A stretch of DNA of 35,119 nucleotides, from the NCBI GenBank assembly GCA_028284955.1, contig JANQQS010000031.1, forward strand, positions 1 to 35,119, written 5' to 3'. Each line of letters begins with the position of its first letter. Within the stretch, counting starts at the first letter, position 1. Below are positions 4,430 to 19,530 of this stretch, in pieces. The position numbers and the translations under genes are program-made. Origin of the DNA: Myxococcota bacterium. Its GTDB lineage: Bacteria > Myxococcota_A > Polyangia > Polyangiales > Houyiibacteriaceae. The notes beneath the pieces are model-generated. The model was given only the letters and a program-made list of their open reading frames with translations, had not been told where the DNA came from and made no database searches.

Positions 4430-5328
4430 CTGGTGCCTGCCTTTCTTCTCGAGGCTGCTTTTTTCTTCGGCGCGCGCGGCGGCTCCCCGTCCGTTTCGTC
4501 CTCCCGCTCGTCGACTCGCGACAAAGGAAATAGCTGGAGATTCAGCTGAACGACTTGCTTCGGCTCAGCCTCGAGCTCCGAGAGCTCGAGTAGCTCACGC
4601 CGCAGACCATGAATTCGCTCCTTCATGCGCGCGAGGCCCGAGGCGCTTAAGCACACTGTGATCGACGAAATATCGCGCTCCTGGGATGGCACCAAATCGA
4701 TCGACTCCGAAGCACGATGCATCATCTCCCGGTGGTAACGCGCCACGTGCACCGAGGCTGTTTCCGGGCCCGTGCTCAGCAGAGACGAACCCTGGGTCGC
4801 ACGCCCGTTGCCCTCCTGAACCAGCAAGCCAAGCTCGAACAGAGTGTCGAGGGCTCGTTGCGCTTCGGTCTCCGAGATGCGCGGAAGCAATGTTCGCGCG
4901 ATCCATCGCGCATCTTGACGAAAATCGGGGCGCGCCGCGAGCTCTCGAATCGCCGGCAAATACCAATGACCCGCATATTCAGCGTGCCGGGCGTCGAGCC
5001 GCTGGGCGCGCCGATATCGTTTCGACCGGAGCAGCGTCTGATAGTGCGCCTCTCGCTCTACGCTGTTGCTCGCTTGGTTGAACGCCACCAAACGAACAAA
5101 ATACTCGCGCGCGCCGCCTTCCAAACCGCACGCTTCGCCGAATCGCTCCGCCATTTCGGGGCTGAGGTTGCGTTCTCCGTCTATCACGAGCTTCAGGTAG
5201 TTGGTGGACCGCAAACCGACGCGCTTGGAGAACGCGCGATACGAGTAGCCCGCGCGGCGCTGCTTGCGCCGCTGATAAAACGCGCGAAGGAATTCGCGAT
5301 AGTCGAGAAAGGAAAATACGGATTCCAT
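4426..5328 (-). CDS. TIGR02147 family protein (DUF4423), putative regulator
   Basis: The N-terminus (MESVFSFLDYREFLRAFY, then GYSYRAFSKRVGLRSTNYLK) is the hallmark of TIGR02147: a 'YR.FL...Y..RK' stretch followed by a helix-turn-helix that resembles Cro/XRE domains. The C-terminal half (residues about 90-270) fits DUF4423, with SITVCLSASGLARMKERIHGLRREL near the end, and the last 30 residues are Lys/Arg-rich. I chose the Met at 5328 because the family begins here; an upstream in-frame extension to 5427 lacks family similarity. The family is frequent in Bdellovibrio, Fibrobacter and Myxococcota and is thought to be regulatory. A small inverted repeat 12 bases upstream of the start could be its operator. 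Confidence 0.85.
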   Translation of the reverse strand: MESVFSFLDYREFLRAFYQRRKQRRAGYSYRAFSKRVGLRSTNYLKLVIDGERNLSPEMAERFGEACGLEGGAREYFVRLVAFNQASNSVEREAHYQTLLRSKRYRRAQRLDARHAEYAGHWYLPAIRELAARPDFRQDARWIARTLLPRISETEAQRALDTLFELGLLVQEGNGRATQGSSLLSTGPETASVHVARYHREMMHRASESIDLVPSQERDISSITVCLSASGLARMKERIHGLRRELLELSELEAEPKQVVQLNLQLFPLSRVDEREDETDGEPPRAPKKKAASRRKAGTR

Positions 5329-5339
5329 GGCGCCCCGAT

Positions 5340-5357
5340 GGATACCAACGAGTATCC
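5340..5357. promoter_or_regulatory. Inverted repeat upstream of TIGR02147 gene
   Basis: GGATAC-caacga-GTATCC is a perfect 6-bp inverted repeat with a 6-bp spacer, in the divergent region between the TIGR02147 gene (start 5328) and the lipoprotein at 5480. Its position suits an autoregulatory operator or a 5' leader hairpin. Function is inferred only from position. Confidence 0.35.
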
Positions 5358-5479
5358 AAAAATGCTCATTTCTTTCGAAATAGAGGAGGACAGCTGGAAA
5401 CTTGTCATTCAAAGTCCGTATACGCAATCACAAGATCCGAAAACGTGATGCGCCAGTTTCGGAACACATGGAGGACCCG

Positions 5480-6460
5480 ATGCAGCATGGACTACCGACG
5501 TACTTTTTCTGCTTACTCTGCGGGCTTGCCGCCGCTTGCACGAATGACACGACGGATCCGTCCGCGACGAAACCCATGGCTCATGGAAGCGACAACGATG
5601 CACCAGGAAGCGATGCGCAAAGCGGAAATAAGAACACAGAAGAAAACAATGTGGGCGACGCTGACGAAAGCGACGACGACGCAGTTGCGCTTTCGCAAAT
5701 CAACCCGGAAACGGTATTTCTTAATTGCAACGCTACGAACGCGGACGGGTACAAACCCCCAAGCGTCTATCGTTCGGCCTCGCAACCACCCGGGCCGCGC
5801 ATGCGCATCATCTCGATTTATGAGCCAAGCAACGACCCCTTCGGAAATTGGGTAGTCGGAAACGATGGACTCCCGGTGCTCGACGAGAACGGTCATCCTA
5901 TGCTGGCGCCACCTAGGCAGCTCGATGCCCGCGTTCGCTTGGATGACCCTGGAGAACAAGTATTGGTCCTGGCTTCGTACGCCAGCACGCATTGGCGTAT
6001 TGAGGTTGGCGACCAGAGCACGCTCCGCGAAGTGCATATTCTTTCGTTCGAAAAATCGGACGTCAGCGCACCCGAGGGTACTGAGGTGACGATCCACGAC
6101 CGATCTCGCCTGGTCCCTGGCTACGCCTGGAACTACTTCGCAGATTGGCCTCAAGAAGCAACGCACCACGAGCTCCCGCTGTGCACACACGGGGACATTC
6201 AAACGCAGGAATGGATATACGCCGAAATGCTCATGGGGGTCGACCACGACAGTTCCAGGTTCGCTGAGTTGGCGCTAGAGCGCCACGATTTCCTCAACGA
6301 CTGTTATGCAGCCGGACTCGTCGCGGCGGCCGAACAAGTCACCAGCTTCGAGCTGGCAGCGTTTGATAGTTGCTACGCGGCCGACGACATCCACATCACC
6401 GCCGCCCCAAAAGAACACCCGTCAAAAGACCCGGGAAGCGGGCCTACCCCCGCGTTCTGA
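5480..6460 (+). CDS. Hypothetical lipoprotein
   Basis: The 326-residue product has a lipoprotein signal ending LAAAC (Cys20), then an acidic, Asn/Asp-rich linker to about residue 75 and a folded part with several Cys (NCNAT, LPLC, NDCYAAG, DSCYAAD). I chose the ATG at 5480 because GGAGGA lies five bases upstream; an in-frame ATG at 5468 lies within this Shine-Dalgarno sequence. The segment around IISIYEPSNDPFGNW to VLVLASYASTHWRIEV resembles proteins of unknown function in which a hydrophobic 'vLvLsSYe.t.W.i' strand recurs. No enzymatic motif was recognised. It is divergent from the TIGR02147 gene and could be under its control. Confidence 0.75.
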   Translation: MQHGLPTYFFCLLCGLAAACTNDTTDPSATKPMAHGSDNDAPGSDAQSGNKNTEENNVGDADESDDDAVALSQINPETVFLNCNATNADGYKPPSVYRSASQPPGPRMRIISIYEPSNDPFGNWVVGNDGLPVLDENGHPMLAPPRQLDARVRLDDPGEQVLVLASYASTHWRIEVGDQSTLREVHILSFEKSDVSAPEGTEVTIHDRSRLVPGYAWNYFADWPQEATHHELPLCTHGDIQTQEWIYAEMLMGVDHDSSRFAELALERHDFLNDCYAAGLVAAAEQVTSFELAAFDSCYAADDIHITAAPKEHPSKDPGSGPTPAF

Positions 6461-6492
6461 GCATCCTACGCTGAGTCCACCTCGGTCTCGGG

Positions 6493-6897
6493 CTATTCGA
6501 GCTTCTCGAGTAGCTCGTCGATCACGACCTCGCGCTCGCGCCGAATGCGCTGGACGAACTTGGTTGGAACAGCGGTGTCTTCGTCGTGATCGTGGCTCCA
6601 CGCGACGAGCTCCAGCATCACGGGCGCAAGCGCCTTACCTTTGTCGGTCAGTCGATAGACGAAACGCTTTCCGTGCGTCTCGTCTTCGGCTTTGGATACC
6701 AGGCCAGCGCAGCAAAGTTTCGACAGTCGGTCCGCAAGAATATTGGTGGAAATGCCCTCGCCGGCATCGAGAAATTCCTGATAGTGGCGCCTGCCGCGAA
6801 ACATCAAATCGCGCACGATCAGGAGCGTCCAGCGGTCGCCGAGAATATCGAGCGCATGAACGATTGGGCAAGGCGATCGGCGGGTTCCAGCGGACAA
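6493..6897 (-). CDS. HxlR (DUF24) family transcriptional regulator
   Basis: The 134-residue protein matches the winged-helix HxlR family: CPIVHALDILGDRWTLLIVRDLMF near the N-terminus with the conserved Cys, then GISTNILADRLSKL (recognition helix region), GLV and the wing YRLTDKGKAL. In related regulators such as YodB and HypR the N-terminal Cys senses quinones or other electrophiles. It is the last gene of an apparent operon with a glutathione S-transferase and an unknown protein (gaps of 18 and 42 bases), so it probably controls that operon, perhaps through the paired palindromes at 8212-8226 and 8235-8249. The 3' end lies 32 bases from the convergent lipoprotein stop. Confidence 0.92.
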   Translation of the reverse strand: MSAGTRRSPCPIVHALDILGDRWTLLIVRDLMFRGRRHYQEFLDAGEGISTNILADRLSKLCCAGLVSKAEDETHGKRFVYRLTDKGKALAPVMLELVAWSHDHDEDTAVPTKFVQRIRREREVVIDELLEKLE

Positions 6898-14912: not shown

Positions 14913-16067
14913 TCAAACAGAATGGCCAAACCTCAACACGCAGTGCCACAGCAGTTTTAGCTCTTGAAGAACTTCATCGTAGCTTCCTCGATCGGACCAA
15001 TCTTCGGGCCGACGGTGGAGCGCCTGGGCCGCTTCTCCTATCGCGCGGGCGTGGACCACGCCGTCCATCGCGATTTGCTTCGCGAGCGAAGGCATCGTCA
15101 CGCCACGAAAATCGCCCGGGACTTCATCCTCGGGCAATTCAAACCCGCAATGCCAATGCAAGGTGATGTCATAACGTGCGCAAAGCTCTTCGAGTTCTTC
15201 GCCGATTGCGCTTTCTTGAAACGATGGGTCGGCGATCAGCGCGTCGACGTGGTCCTCTAACGAAATCGGGCCGTGCACCTGTGCTTCGATGTAGTGGTCA
15301 AGGTTACGTGAAGGAAGGTTGCGTGAAGGTTCGCCGGAGAACCGTTCTTCGAGTGGAGCGACGACGCATTCTGAGATGCGCGCGATGAGCGGCCCAGGGC
15401 GCATTCCGATAGCGCCGAGTACGGAATCTCGGGTAAACGAATCTTTCAAAGCGGCTGCGATCACTTCATCAAGCTCGCGACAAGTACCCTGCTCTTCTGG
15501 AGCTCCATGCGAATCACCATAGGTGAAGGTGCATCGGGCAGATGCTTTAGGAGCCAAGAGAAAGTAGCACGCACCGAACCGCGGTGATGGGCCGTCCGGG
15601 AAGCCAAGCAAATCGAGCGCGCCGTATTTCGGCCTCCCCTCGCTCGTCGCACCTTCGTATGCGCCGCCGAAGAGCCGCTCTTCCCATTCATCGCGCACCC
15701 CGCCCGGGAACGCCGTCAGACTTCCATTCGAACGCCCGGTTTCAAACTGGCTTTTGTACACCCCTCCGCGCAGTAGCCCCGCCACCACCGTCTCGTCATT
15801 GGTTGTTCGGTCGGAGTCCGGCGGGTTGTGATGCTTCAGTCGATCGGGATGCCTCAGTCGATCGGGATGCCTCAGTCGATCCGGGTGAAAGTGAAGCGCC
15901 ACCCGCGCGTGCGTTTGAATCGCGGACATCATGGCATCGAACTCCACGACCGAGACGTTCGACATGCGCAGCACGTGGTCGAGCGTGGCCCGCGCTTCCT
16001 TTCGACGCGCCCGCGCACGCGCGGCTAAGTGTTCGATCGCCTTTGCCTGAGACCCCGAGAGAGACAT
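14913..16067 (-). CDS. DUF3626 domain protein
   Basis: The 384-residue protein shows the DUF3626 signature: VALHFHPDRL, GLLRGGVYKSQFETGRSNGSLTAFPGG, WEERLFGGAYEG, PKYGALDLLGFPDGPSPRFGACYF and FTYGDSH. As I recall, the family has been grouped with ADP-ribosyltransferase-like folds, but its activity is unproven. There is no signal peptide. A tandem 18-bp repeat expands the HPDR motif into RHPDRLRHPDRLKH (residues about 62-76), and a 15-bp repeat gives NLPSRNLPSRNL near residue 260. Both keep the frame. The expansion follows the conserved HFHPDR motif, so it could affect function. The gene is flanked by a small lipoprotein and vapB. Confidence 0.8.
   Translation of the reverse strand: MSLSGSQAKAIEHLAARARARRKEARATLDHVLRMSNVSVVEFDAMMSAIQTHARVALHFHPDRLRHPDRLRHPDRLKHHNPPDSDRTTNDETVVAGLLRGGVYKSQFETGRSNGSLTAFPGGVRDEWEERLFGGAYEGATSEGRPKYGALDLLGFPDGPSPRFGACYFLLAPKASARCTFTYGDSHGAPEEQGTCRELDEVIAAALKDSFTRDSVLGAIGMRPGPLIARISECVVAPLEERFSGEPSRNLPSRNLDHYIEAQVHGPISLEDHVDALIADPSFQESAIGEELEELCARYDITLHWHCGFELPEDEVPGDFRGVTMPSLAKQIAMDGVVHARAIGEAAQALHRRPEDWSDRGSYDEVLQELKLLWHCVLRFGHSV
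15831..15884. repeat. 18-bp tandem repeat, three copies, inside the DUF3626 gene
   Basis: The unit ATGCCTCAGTCGATCGGG occurs three times (15831-15848, 15849-15866, 15867-15884) with one or two changes. On the coding (minus) strand it encodes repeats of RHPDRL. The length is a multiple of three, so the frame is kept. Confidence 0.85.
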
Positions 16068-16541: not shown

Positions 16542-18080
16542 CTAGTCACGTTCGACGATATAGCGGCGCATCTTTCCGCACGAGACGGGCAAATTACGCA
16601 CTGGGACGACGGTCACGGAAACCTCGGTACCGACGATTCGCTGGATGCGTACGCGGATAGCCTGGCTCAGCTCTTGCGCTGGCTGCATGGAAGTCCACTC
16701 CACGCGGAGCTCGTCTCGCTTTTGCGTGATGGTGAAGTCCACCACGGGGAAGCTGGCGAGTATGGGGTCGAGCTGCGTGGTGAACACTGTGCGGTGGGAA
16801 AAGCAAAAACGGTCCGCCGAGCGGCCGTAGAGCTTTTCGATCACAAAGCGTGGCCGGTTTCGCTCATCGATGTCGCGACGTAGCTGCACGCGATCGCCGG
16901 TTCGATATCGAATCAGGGGCATATACGAAGAAAGCAGATTGGTGAGCAGGAGTTCGCCGAGACCTTCTTCGCGAATCACGCCGTCGTCGCATCGAACTTC
17001 GAGATGGTATGCGTCGGGGACGACGTGAAACTCTTCCGATTCCGGAGGCGCCAAGGCCATACGACCTCCTTCGGCGAGCGCGTAGATGTTGTACACGGGG
17101 CACTCGAACCAATTCGAAACGAGCGCTTTTTGGTCGGGATAGAGATTGCCCCCGCTCGCGCAAATGGCGTGCGGTCGAATGCGAGCCGATGCGGGCGGTA
17201 GCGCTTCGTCAAGCTGCGCCAGCAACACGAGCGACCAGGGCCGCGCATGGAGCAATGGCGGCGGGTGTCGACGCAAGCGGAGCACCAATGCCTCGTCTTC
17301 GGCGGGGCTCGGCAGTCGGTTGACGAAGGGTTCGTCGGTATGTCGTCGGGTGCCGCCGAATAGACCCACTTGATATACGGAAAGGTTGAGGCTGGGCACG
17401 GGCACAGACGGGCATGCCGAGCTGCCGCCGTCGTTGGCCATGAACACACCCAGCTGTCGCGGCTCCAGCGCATCACGAAACGCGCTCTCTCGAGCGGCGA
17501 TCTGTTCGTACACATCGAAATGCCGAACGTAGCGCTCGGCTCGACTGTAGCCGACCACGACCGGCGGCGTTCGTGTGCCAGATGGAGTCCAAAAAGTCGG
17601 GGTGCCGCGAAGCGCTTTTGGAATCACGAGTCGCTCCGCATTGGCCACCCAGACTTCGCGCGACATGATCGGCCAGTCGGTCAGAGAGACACTCGCCAGC
17701 GAGTCTTGAGCCCGCGACGCTTCGTTGCCACTCATAAGCTCGCGGTAGAACGGCGATCGTGTTGCGGCAAAGTGAAGAAACCGCTCGAGCGCATGTGGGC
17801 GGCGTAGGCTTTCCACAAGGGGACCGGCTTCCTTCCAGCCGGCCAATGCGTGCATGAATCCTTCTGCGAATTGGGCCTGAGGGGATATCGGACGTCGAAA
17901 GTCGACGAAGAGCTGGTCGCGCCAGAGGCGCAGGGGAAGATCGGGATCAGATTCAGGATTGGAATCGGGATCGGGATCGGGATCGGGTTCCGCGTCGGTG
18001 TCGGCGTCGGGTTCCGCGTCGGCGTCGGGTTCCGCGTCGGGTTCGGCGTCGAGTTCCGTTTCGTCGATCGGTCGCATCAT
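16542..18080 (-). CDS. PaaK-like adenylate-forming enzyme with acidic repeat N-terminus
   Basis: This protein has the layout of phenylacetate-CoA ligase / CapK-type enzymes: FLHFAATRSPFYRELM, DWPIMSREVW, a phosphate-binding loop TPSGTRTPPVVVGYS, the motif IYALAEGGRMA, LIRYRTGDRV, and a final catalytic-type lysine in CGKMRRY. It should activate a carboxylate as an AMP ester and pass it to CoA, a carrier or a peptide. Before the domain lie about 35 acidic residues made of DAEPDAD and DPDPDPD repeats. ATG 18080 is chosen for its GGAG upstream; the frame is open to TTG 18152, and that segment looks coding too. A 50-residue peptide gene precedes it on the same strand. The substrate is unknown. Confidence 0.8.
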   Translation of the reverse strand: MMRPIDETELDAEPDAEPDADAEPDADTDAEPDPDPDPDSNPESDPDLPLRLWRDQLFVDFRRPISPQAQFAEGFMHALAGWKEAGPLVESLRRPHALERFLHFAATRSPFYRELMSGNEASRAQDSLASVSLTDWPIMSREVWVANAERLVIPKALRGTPTFWTPSGTRTPPVVVGYSRAERYVRHFDVYEQIAARESAFRDALEPRQLGVFMANDGGSSACPSVPVPSLNLSVYQVGLFGGTRRHTDEPFVNRLPSPAEDEALVLRLRRHPPPLLHARPWSLVLLAQLDEALPPASARIRPHAICASGGNLYPDQKALVSNWFECPVYNIYALAEGGRMALAPPESEEFHVVPDAYHLEVRCDDGVIREEGLGELLLTNLLSSYMPLIRYRTGDRVQLRRDIDERNRPRFVIEKLYGRSADRFCFSHRTVFTTQLDPILASFPVVDFTITQKRDELRVEWTSMQPAQELSQAIRVRIQRIVGTEVSVTVVPVRNLPVSCGKMRRYIVERD

Positions 18081-18154
18081 GCCTCGCTCCACAATCTCTT
18101 TCGCAACGGGCTCGAGCGCCACGCCGACCCATTCGACGTCAGTCGTCGACAATG

Positions 18155-18184
18155 CTCATGAAACAACTACTCATGAAACAACTA
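18155..18184. repeat. 15-bp tandem duplication upstream of the PaaK-like gene
   Basis: CTCATGAAACAACTA occurs twice in tandem (18155-18169, 18170-18184). It lies between the peptide stop codon and the enzyme start, just upstream of the alternative TTG start at 18152. Confidence 0.9.
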
Positions 18185-18217
18185 CAGGAGCAGCGCAGCG
18201 CTCGAAAACGCCACCAA

Positions 18218-18370
18218 CTACGCGCCGTCTCCCGCAGCAGGCTGAGACATACCGCCATGAATCTGGCGCAGCTCTTCCGCGCTAAGACGTCCTTCGATTT
18301 CTTTCATCCACGACTGCGCGCGCTCGGCAATCTCTCGCTGTCGGCGTTGTTCTCCGAGATTTTTCTTCAT
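18218..18370 (-). CDS. Small peptide with double-glycine-type leader; candidate RiPP precursor
   Basis: This 50-codon gene starts at ATG 18370 behind a strong AGGAGAG Shine-Dalgarno sequence and stops at TAG 18218-18220. The product has a charged helical N-terminus (MKKNLGEQRRQREIAERAQS), then LSAEELRQIHGG and a C-terminal stretch MSQPAAGDGA. 'LS.EEL..I.GG' is the classic double-glycine leader ending of bacteriocin and RiPP precursors, which would leave a 10-residue core. It lies upstream of, and on the same strand as, the PaaK-like enzyme, and is divergent from a LysR regulator. No transporter/peptidase or cyclase is seen in the window. Alternatively it may be an unrelated small regulatory protein. 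Confidence 0.6.
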   Translation of the reverse strand: MKKNLGEQRRQREIAERAQSWMKEIEGRLSAEELRQIHGGMSQPAAGDGA

Positions 18371-18388
18371 TCCATCTCTCCTGGTCGG

Positions 18389-18406
18389 CGACGCGACATT
18401 GCGTCG
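18389..18406. promoter_or_regulatory. Palindrome between the peptide gene and the LysR gene
   Basis: CGACGC-gacatt-GCGTCG is a perfect 6-bp inverted repeat with a 6-bp spacer in the 110-base divergent region. LysR proteins usually bind such dyads between their own gene and a divergent target, so this is a candidate site controlling the peptide/enzyme pair. Confidence 0.45.
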
Positions 18407-18480: not shown

Positions 18481-19530
18481 ATGCCTCGCTTGGTGAACCG
18501 CAATGAAAACTGGTACGCTGCGCGGCTCGTGCTGGTGGATTACGACCTCTTGAAGAGCTTCGCCGTGGTGGGCCGGTCGGCAAGTTTTGCGGCCGCCGCC
18601 CGTGCCCGCAGCGTCAGCCAGCCAGCCATCAGCGCGCAAATGAAAACGCTCGAAGGCCAGCTGGGTCTTTCGCTTTTCGATCGTTCGGGCCGACGCGCAA
18701 CGCTCACCTCCGTCGGAGAAACGTTGCTCGAAGCGGTGCTCGCGGCCTACGATCGCATCGACCAAACCATCGACAAGCTCGTCGCAGAGCAATCCGAAGT
18801 TCGCGGAGTAGTCCAAATCGGCGGAGCAGGCCCTTTTGCTCGGCTATGGCTCCAGCGCGGCGTCCGCCAGCTCGCAGAGTCGTACCCCGATCTCGAAATT
18901 CGCGTGCGCTACTGCGATGGCGCAGAAGTCGAAGATGAAGTTCGCGAGCGACGCCTCGATTTCGGAATTTCCACGGGCGCAGCAGCTCCCGCCGACCTGA
19001 GATCCGCCCACATCACAGACGAAGAGACGCTGGCAGTCGCGTCCTCGAGCTATTTTGCAACGCGTTATCCCCCGACTTCCGCCGCGGATTTTCGCGCGCT
19101 CGATTGGATCGCGACCGAACAACAAGAACGGTTGATTAGGCCCTGGTGGAAACATGTATTCGGCGCCAAGGGGCTCCCTCCGGCCCGCTTCGCGTACGAA
19201 GTCTCCGACCTCAATCAAGTCTTGGAGATGGTGAAGAGTGGTCTCGGGGTAAGCGTGCTCCCCCGCTACTTGGCGCAGGCGAGCCTAGACTGCGGCCAGC
19301 TGACGATGCTCGAAGCAAAAGAAGGTCGTTCTCCCTCCGTCAAGACCAGACCGGTATTCTTGGTCTGGCGAAACGACACAGACGAGTCGGCTCGCTTCTG
19401 CGCGGCGCGCGAGGCGCTGCTCGAAGCCTCGTTCGACGCGCAGGCCCGATCTACACAACCGAAACCACCACGTACTGCTTTTTCTGACGCGCTACCTGCA
19501 ACTCGAAGTCGTCTCCCGTCTCGCGATTGA
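18481..19530 (+). CDS. LysR-family transcriptional regulator
   Basis: The N-terminal winged helix is standard LysR (YDLLKSFAVVGRSASFAAAARARSVSQPAISAQMKTLEGQLGLSLFDRSGRRATLTSVGE), followed by the two-lobed effector domain (GVVQIGGAGPFARLWLQRGVRQL; FGISTGAA; VLEMVKSGLGVSVLPRYLA). The true start is uncertain: ATG 18481 has AGGAGG 21 bases upstream, while GTG 18529 would match the usual family start better. The last 25 or so residues have no family similarity and are encoded in the 80-base overlap with the convergent Gre gene. Divergence from the peptide and PaaK-like genes suggests it regulates them. Confidence 0.9.
   Translation: MPRLVNRNENWYAARLVLVDYDLLKSFAVVGRSASFAAAARARSVSQPAISAQMKTLEGQLGLSLFDRSGRRATLTSVGETLLEAVLAAYDRIDQTIDKLVAEQSEVRGVVQIGGAGPFARLWLQRGVRQLAESYPDLEIRVRYCDGAEVEDEVRERRLDFGISTGAAAPADLRSAHITDEETLAVASSSYFATRYPPTSAADFRALDWIATEQQERLIRPWWKHVFGAKGLPPARFAYEVSDLNQVLEMVKSGLGVSVLPRYLAQASLDCGQLTMLEAKEGRSPSVKTRPVFLVWRNDTDESARFCAAREALLEASFDAQARSTQPKPPRTAFSDALPATRSRLPSRD

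Follow-up and report, generated by a model that had tools for sequence, protein, structure and literature searches.

The adenylate-forming ANL superfamily is best known from nonribosomal peptide synthetases and acyl-coenzyme A (CoA) chemistry. The PaaK-type enzymes NatL2 and ClxA pass an acyl-adenylate directly to a hydroxyl or an amine and thereby make esters or amides (PMC7204872, PMC12519233). Precursors of ribosomally synthesized and post-translationally modified peptides (RiPPs) that leave the cell through C39 peptidase-containing ATP-binding transporters (PCATs) follow a published substrate rule, i.e., hydrophobic residues at leader positions -4, -7 and -12 and a double glycine, occurring as GG, GA or GS, before the core (PMC10885120). 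Here, we describe a locus of a Myxococcota bacterium that brings these two elements together. In the 35,119-nucleotide stretch analyzed (contig JANQQS010000031.1; the window), a 50-codon gene for a peptide with a double-glycine leader precedes a gene for a PaaK-like ligase. We refer to a short double-glycine open reading frame (ORF) with a PaaK-like ligase gene directly downstream as a unit. At about an even chance, we read these units as a candidate new RiPP-like system, in which the ligase would join an acyl group to the core of the precursor and a C39 transporter would export the product.

Peptide-ligase pairs in one genome

The genome of the window is a 6.07-Mb draft of 223 contigs (96.55% complete), and labels such as C26, C72, C97 or C108 denote its contigs. 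A search with the window ligase retrieved 12 full-length PaaK-like paralogues, the 11 others being about 26-33% identical to it. Inspection of the loci revealed an ORF of 49-68 amino acids (aa), equipped with a ribosome-binding site, immediately upstream of 11 of the 12. Searches from the peptide side converge on the same places. When the genome is searched with the 50-aa window peptide, the three matches ranking next (C26, C188 and C72; E 0.001-0.02) each lie just upstream of a PaaK-like paralogue. A profile of the 11 peptides matches exactly those 11 places genome-wide (next match E 0.28), and a PaaK-like gene adjoins the peptide gene at every one. The pairing is thus real and recurrent within this genome, and the unit exists in 11-12 divergent copies. 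Since all 12 ligases group in a single clade (SH-aLRT 99) in a tree of 102 PaaK-like sequences, the unit has expanded within this lineage. G+C content is 0.58-0.61 at all unit loci, which argues against contamination. A sequence-only reading of the window had singled out the 50-codon ORF with its AGGAGAG and had proposed, as a check, to ask whether ligase homologues in several genomes are preceded by a small ORF with the ending EEL..I.GG. The ORF is as described and, as one of an 11-copy family, more than a chance frame; such an arrangement holds at 11 of 12 ligases within the genome but was not found in several genomes.

The 11 peptides divide sharply into a conserved and a variable part (Table 1). 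Their leaders align far beyond shuffled sequences (z = 38), whereas the tails show no conservation (z = 0.15). The last leader residue is glycine in all 11, preceded by glycine in 10 and by alanine in one. Hydrophobic residues occupy position -12 in 11/11, -7 in 9/11 and -4 in 10/11; 8 of the 11 leaders have all three, against 0.26 expected in shuffles. Position -8 is acidic throughout. The window peptide reads MKKNLGEQRRQREIAERAQSWMKEIEGRLSAEELRQIHGG up to and including the double glycine, followed by MSQPAAGDGA. Single members also match, below threshold, the double-glycine families TIGR04149, lichenicidin A2, lactobin A/cerein 7B, CTB bacteriocin, Mersacidin and ComC. Judged by sequence, the peptides are built as a family of RiPP precursors with a double-glycine leader, and the leader type named in the sequence-only reading is borne out by agreement with the PCAT rule and by the contrast between conserved leader and variable core. 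The genome contains a single C39 match; it scores 123 bits and lies in a 774-aa PCAT frame on contig C97, next to HlyD-like and TolC-like genes, both named by eye from their translations.

Table 1. Peptide endings at the 11 units, divided after the double glycine
Unit	Leader end	Core
Window	RQIHGG	MSQPAAGDGA
C108	AQTFGG	ATAINMMDDLK
C166	AAMNGG	AAVLTDSDMPNG
C198a	RALNGG	LSNAGLSPISGTTA
C198c	KSVLGG	EAMPARIDEISG
C188	RFVQGG	VAYGHETQPGLTDA
C146	RAIRAG	DGLAEVVELQAVEGPSPIGA
C211	RQVVGG	EGTLQKCDLLAVDA
C26	RSMFGG	QSETNTGDTHA
C72	AKVTGG	QSQMGAPL
C112	KSMFGG	RHVHAAASQEDM

Three more short ORFs of this genome, otherwise unrelated to the family, end their leaders in a double glycine (e.g., ...EELTTEELKKIAGGQQQETGGCGKGCTGLSL; Table 2). 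Downstream of the ORF on C179 lies a gene for a 422-aa protein that matches no Pfam or NCBIfam family.

The ligase and its predicted chemistry

An AlphaFold2 model of the window ligase (pLDDT 79) finds PaaK1 (E 2e-22), BT_0428, NatL2, AjiA1 and ClxA in Foldseek, and a PDB profile search agrees with a PaaK-like fold. The YRTGD motif and the C-terminal lysine are invariant in 12/12 ligases, and PF00501 is matched in seven of them. The equivalog TIGR02155 for the phenylacetate-CoA ligase PaaK reaches 39 bits, its cut-off being 646. Predicted fold and adenylation motifs thus assign the enzyme to the ANL superfamily as a PaaK-like member. When the C198a peptide and its ligase were modeled as one read-through chain, with the stop codon read as Gln, the leader hairpin reached a pLDDT of about 90 and the linker stayed below 50; this model, made without a control or contact map, suggests either leader docking or a self-standing hairpin.

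A reaction that forms an ester or amide on a peptide would be in keeping with this fold, since NatL2 and ClxA make such bonds from the adenylate. Each unit could then be a minimal two-gene maturation system. Its small gene would encode the precursor, in which a conserved helical leader ending in a double glycine precedes a short core of variable sequence. The ligase would use ATP to form an acyl-adenylate and link the acyl group to the core through an ester or amide. The substrate would most likely be a small carboxylic acid, and a Ser/Thr or an amine of the core would accept it, by analogy with the transfers that NatL2 and ClxA carry out between small molecules. The single C39 exporter, with its HlyD- and TolC-like partners, might cut after the double glycine and secrete the core. 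The LysR-subfamily regulator or sodium:solute symporter (SSF) encoded at several units may sense or supply the substrate. That a leader-guided PaaK-type ANL ligase forming a core ester or amide defines a new RiPP class, with 11 parallel pairs making perhaps distinct secreted signals or toxins, seems to us evenly balanced between right and wrong.

A neighboring branch of the ligase tree (support 85, long branches) holds PaaK-like ligases of two further loci, L085 (Halopseudomonas pachastrellae, 4715-6624) and L167. In both, the preceding gene encodes a protein whose C terminus is a conserved helical tail (...EEAAAKVSRE and ...REAADKYTRE), and the L085 operon resembles a MoxR-AAA/vWA operon.

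Genomic context and competing explanations

Several observations weigh against such a maturation system. The pair was found in a single genome among those searched: outside chance matches, two of them in release factor 2, the peptide profile is absent from the other genomes of the order (184), class (318) and phylum (379), and the family was not found near 80 ligase relatives from a species-wide collection. On the genomes searched, a widespread peptide family is therefore rejected. Within the same family and order, other genomes give only weak, mostly partial matches to the window ligase. The lone GG match in a same-family genome, EAEELLFALAERMSEGEIRQTRGG (G008; L181, G008:C2:430872-430955), lies inside a longer frame of 182 aa, and no ligase occurs in the surrounding 14 kb. 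One of the 12 ligases, C198b, lacks a separate peptide gene. Co-variation between leader and ligase sequences is not significant (Mantel r 0.21, p 0.12), and the PCAT gene, on another contig, clusters with none of the units. Pfam and NCBIfam scans detected no RiPP recognition element (RRE) in the ligases, although a divergent one could escape them. A literature search, of incomplete journal coverage, found no report of an ANL-type ligase as a RiPP maturase. Finally, the neighboring SSF and regulator genes are also compatible with a metabolic role. Directly upstream of C198b lies an RpiR-SIS regulator gene (L039:7540-8643) whose product ends in ...AEKTLAHIEAQLRTAGGPREQAQPQSFAMS, leader-like by eye and with an insignificant profile score.

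The same pairing data would serve if the ligase adenylated the peptide itself, most plausibly at the C-terminal carboxylate of the core, to yield a macrocycle or an amine attachment as unrelated ThiF-like enzymes do in the microcin C, GRC and enterofaecin pathways (PMC12250964). The C198a and C72 cores contain neither Asp nor Glu, so the C terminus is the sole carboxylate common to all cores. PaaK-type enzymes with solved structures, however, use small acids, and neither a domain scan nor Foldseek found a peptide-binding domain in the ligase; we hold peptide adenylation to be unlikely. It is also conceivable that the peptide is an unmodified secreted double-glycine signal or bacteriocin-like product and that the ligase is merely coregulated, its product being either a small molecule distinct from the peptide or a CoA thioester. 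The leaders obey the PCAT rule, PaaK enzymes usually ligate CoA (PMC7204872), and the SSF symporters beside four units could import a carboxylate. Strict one-to-one pairing in 11 diverged copies, without any unpaired peptide, speaks against a merely coregulated ligase, as does the resemblance of the linked SSF proteins to different subfamilies (sugar- and proline-type); we consider this explanation unlikely.

The neighborhood bears on the idea that the small protein is not secreted and instead serves the ligase, or a neighboring symporter, as a helical accessory or regulatory subunit within a LysR-controlled carboxylate-uptake module. Five of the eight genome members of the window LysR subfamily and four of the six SSF symporters (at C211, C146, C166 and C112, i.e., L043, L042, L038 and L046) adjoin units, an enrichment of p about 1e-8 to 1e-10 when ~24 flanking genes of ~5000 are counted. 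This proximity keeps the metabolic subunit alive as an explanation and suggests substrate supply or sensing. Nevertheless, 8 of the 12 units lack an adjoining SSF gene, and a subunit would account poorly for a specific PCAT motif with a double glycine followed by tails without conservation, making this role likewise unlikely in our judgment. No peptide or ligase lies near the remaining LysR-subfamily genes (C99, C89 and C213) or SSF genes (C16 and C58). An ORF so close ahead of the ligase gene, with a codon score that is weak by itself (3.9), would also suit a chance frame or a translational attenuator. This we reject as very improbable, because the amino acid sequence of the leader is kept in 11 copies despite the divergence of the ligases; an Rfam scan of the peptide-gene region gave no match either. 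Acylation of the core thus remains our preferred reading, and we place the system as a variant of the RiPP kind, short of a proven class.

In the window itself (Table 2), the same-strand adenylate-forming enzyme and the divergent LysR gene are arranged as the sequence-only reading had stated. Its remark that known peptide-modifying partners are missing also agrees with Pfam scans of the proteins immediately flanking the units, which revealed no LanM, radical SAM (rSAM)/SPASM, YcaO, ATP-grasp or ThiF maturase. The palindrome that it reported does exist, but the upstream regions inspected at the other units contain no matching element. A function as operator was rejected on this ground, and the repeat is probably incidental, perhaps due to chance, with no visible role. 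The ligase ORF is counted from a TTG, its start being uncertain, and has a low-complexity D/E/P/A insert at residues about 29-69. Short in-frame tandem repeats occur in this gene (D/E/P/A, 17950-18060), in the DUF3626 gene of the window (HPDRLR, 15830-15890) and in the L046 ligase paralogue (QRPNT). Beside the C211 unit, one 696-aa frame (L043:7643-9733) contains both a sucrose-6F-phosphate-phosphatase-like domain and a LysR regulator.

Table 2. Coordinates of the window features and of the further double-glycine ORFs
Feature	Position	Strand	Basis or remark
PaaK-like adenylate-forming ligase, 536 aa	16542..18152	-	AlphaFold2/Foldseek, PDB profile search, motifs
Precursor-like peptide gene, 50 codons	18218..18370	-	ORF and Shine-Dalgarno; profile E 2e-18; 1 of 11-copy family
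Stop codon of peptide gene	18218-18220	-	
Variable core MSQPAAGDGA	18221-18250	-	No conservation across copies
Leader, 40 aa, ending IHGG	18251-18370	-	Conserved across copies
Shine-Dalgarno-like AGGAGAG ahead of peptide ATG	18376..18382	-	Sequence
Inverted repeat CGACGC-N6-GCGTCG in operon leader region	18389..18406	none	Sequence
Divergent LysR-type regulator	18481..19530	+	Pfam LysR_substrate 1.7e-39, HTH_1 1.7e-17
Further double-glycine ORF	L183, about 5377-5427 (C205:28376)		
Further double-glycine ORF	L184, about 5636-5698 (C179:26635)		
Further double-glycine ORF	L182, about 5722-5865 (C164:14721)		

Significance and relation to known systems

If core acylation is correct, the ANL superfamily would join the enzymes that mature ribosomal peptides, and genome mining would gain a simple hook, namely a double-glycine ORF with a PaaK-like gene directly behind it. 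The eleven natural pairs of enzyme and short-core peptide would form a test set for leader guidance and core tolerance, with a possible biocatalyst for acylating peptides among the applications. Their multiplication within a single lineage also prompts one to ask what purpose the pairs serve.

The ThiF-like RiPP adenylyltransferases MccB, PaaA, GrcB and EnfB would share the key step, adenylation of a ribosomal peptide, if the ligase acted on the peptide itself; they belong to a different superfamily and have RRE domains (PMC12250964). Phenylacetate-CoA ligase PaaK and the PaaK-like (CapK-type) proteins of polysaccharide clusters share the overall fold, with TIGR02155 far below its cut-off, and the best profile match outside the genome is a PaaK-like gene that adjoins a glycosyltransferase gene and lacks an upstream peptide gene. 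NatL2/BomJ and ClxA, AMP ligases of the PaaK family whose ester or amide products arise without CoA, have the fold and catalytic motifs in common with our ligases, at about 18-19% identity in fold alignments; they act on small aromatic acids and, unlike the units, have no peptide partner. On the peptide side, the PCAT-exported double-glycine RiPPs, such as the LahA/LahT lanthipeptides and the rSAM-modified RiPPs of TIGR04149, show the same conserved helical leader with its -12/-7/-4 positions and GG, and very diverse cores and many paralogous precursors are common to both (PMC10885120). The units differ from them in that the PCAT is encoded elsewhere and in that LanM, radical SAM or any other known maturase gives way to a PaaK-like ligase of its own for each peptide.
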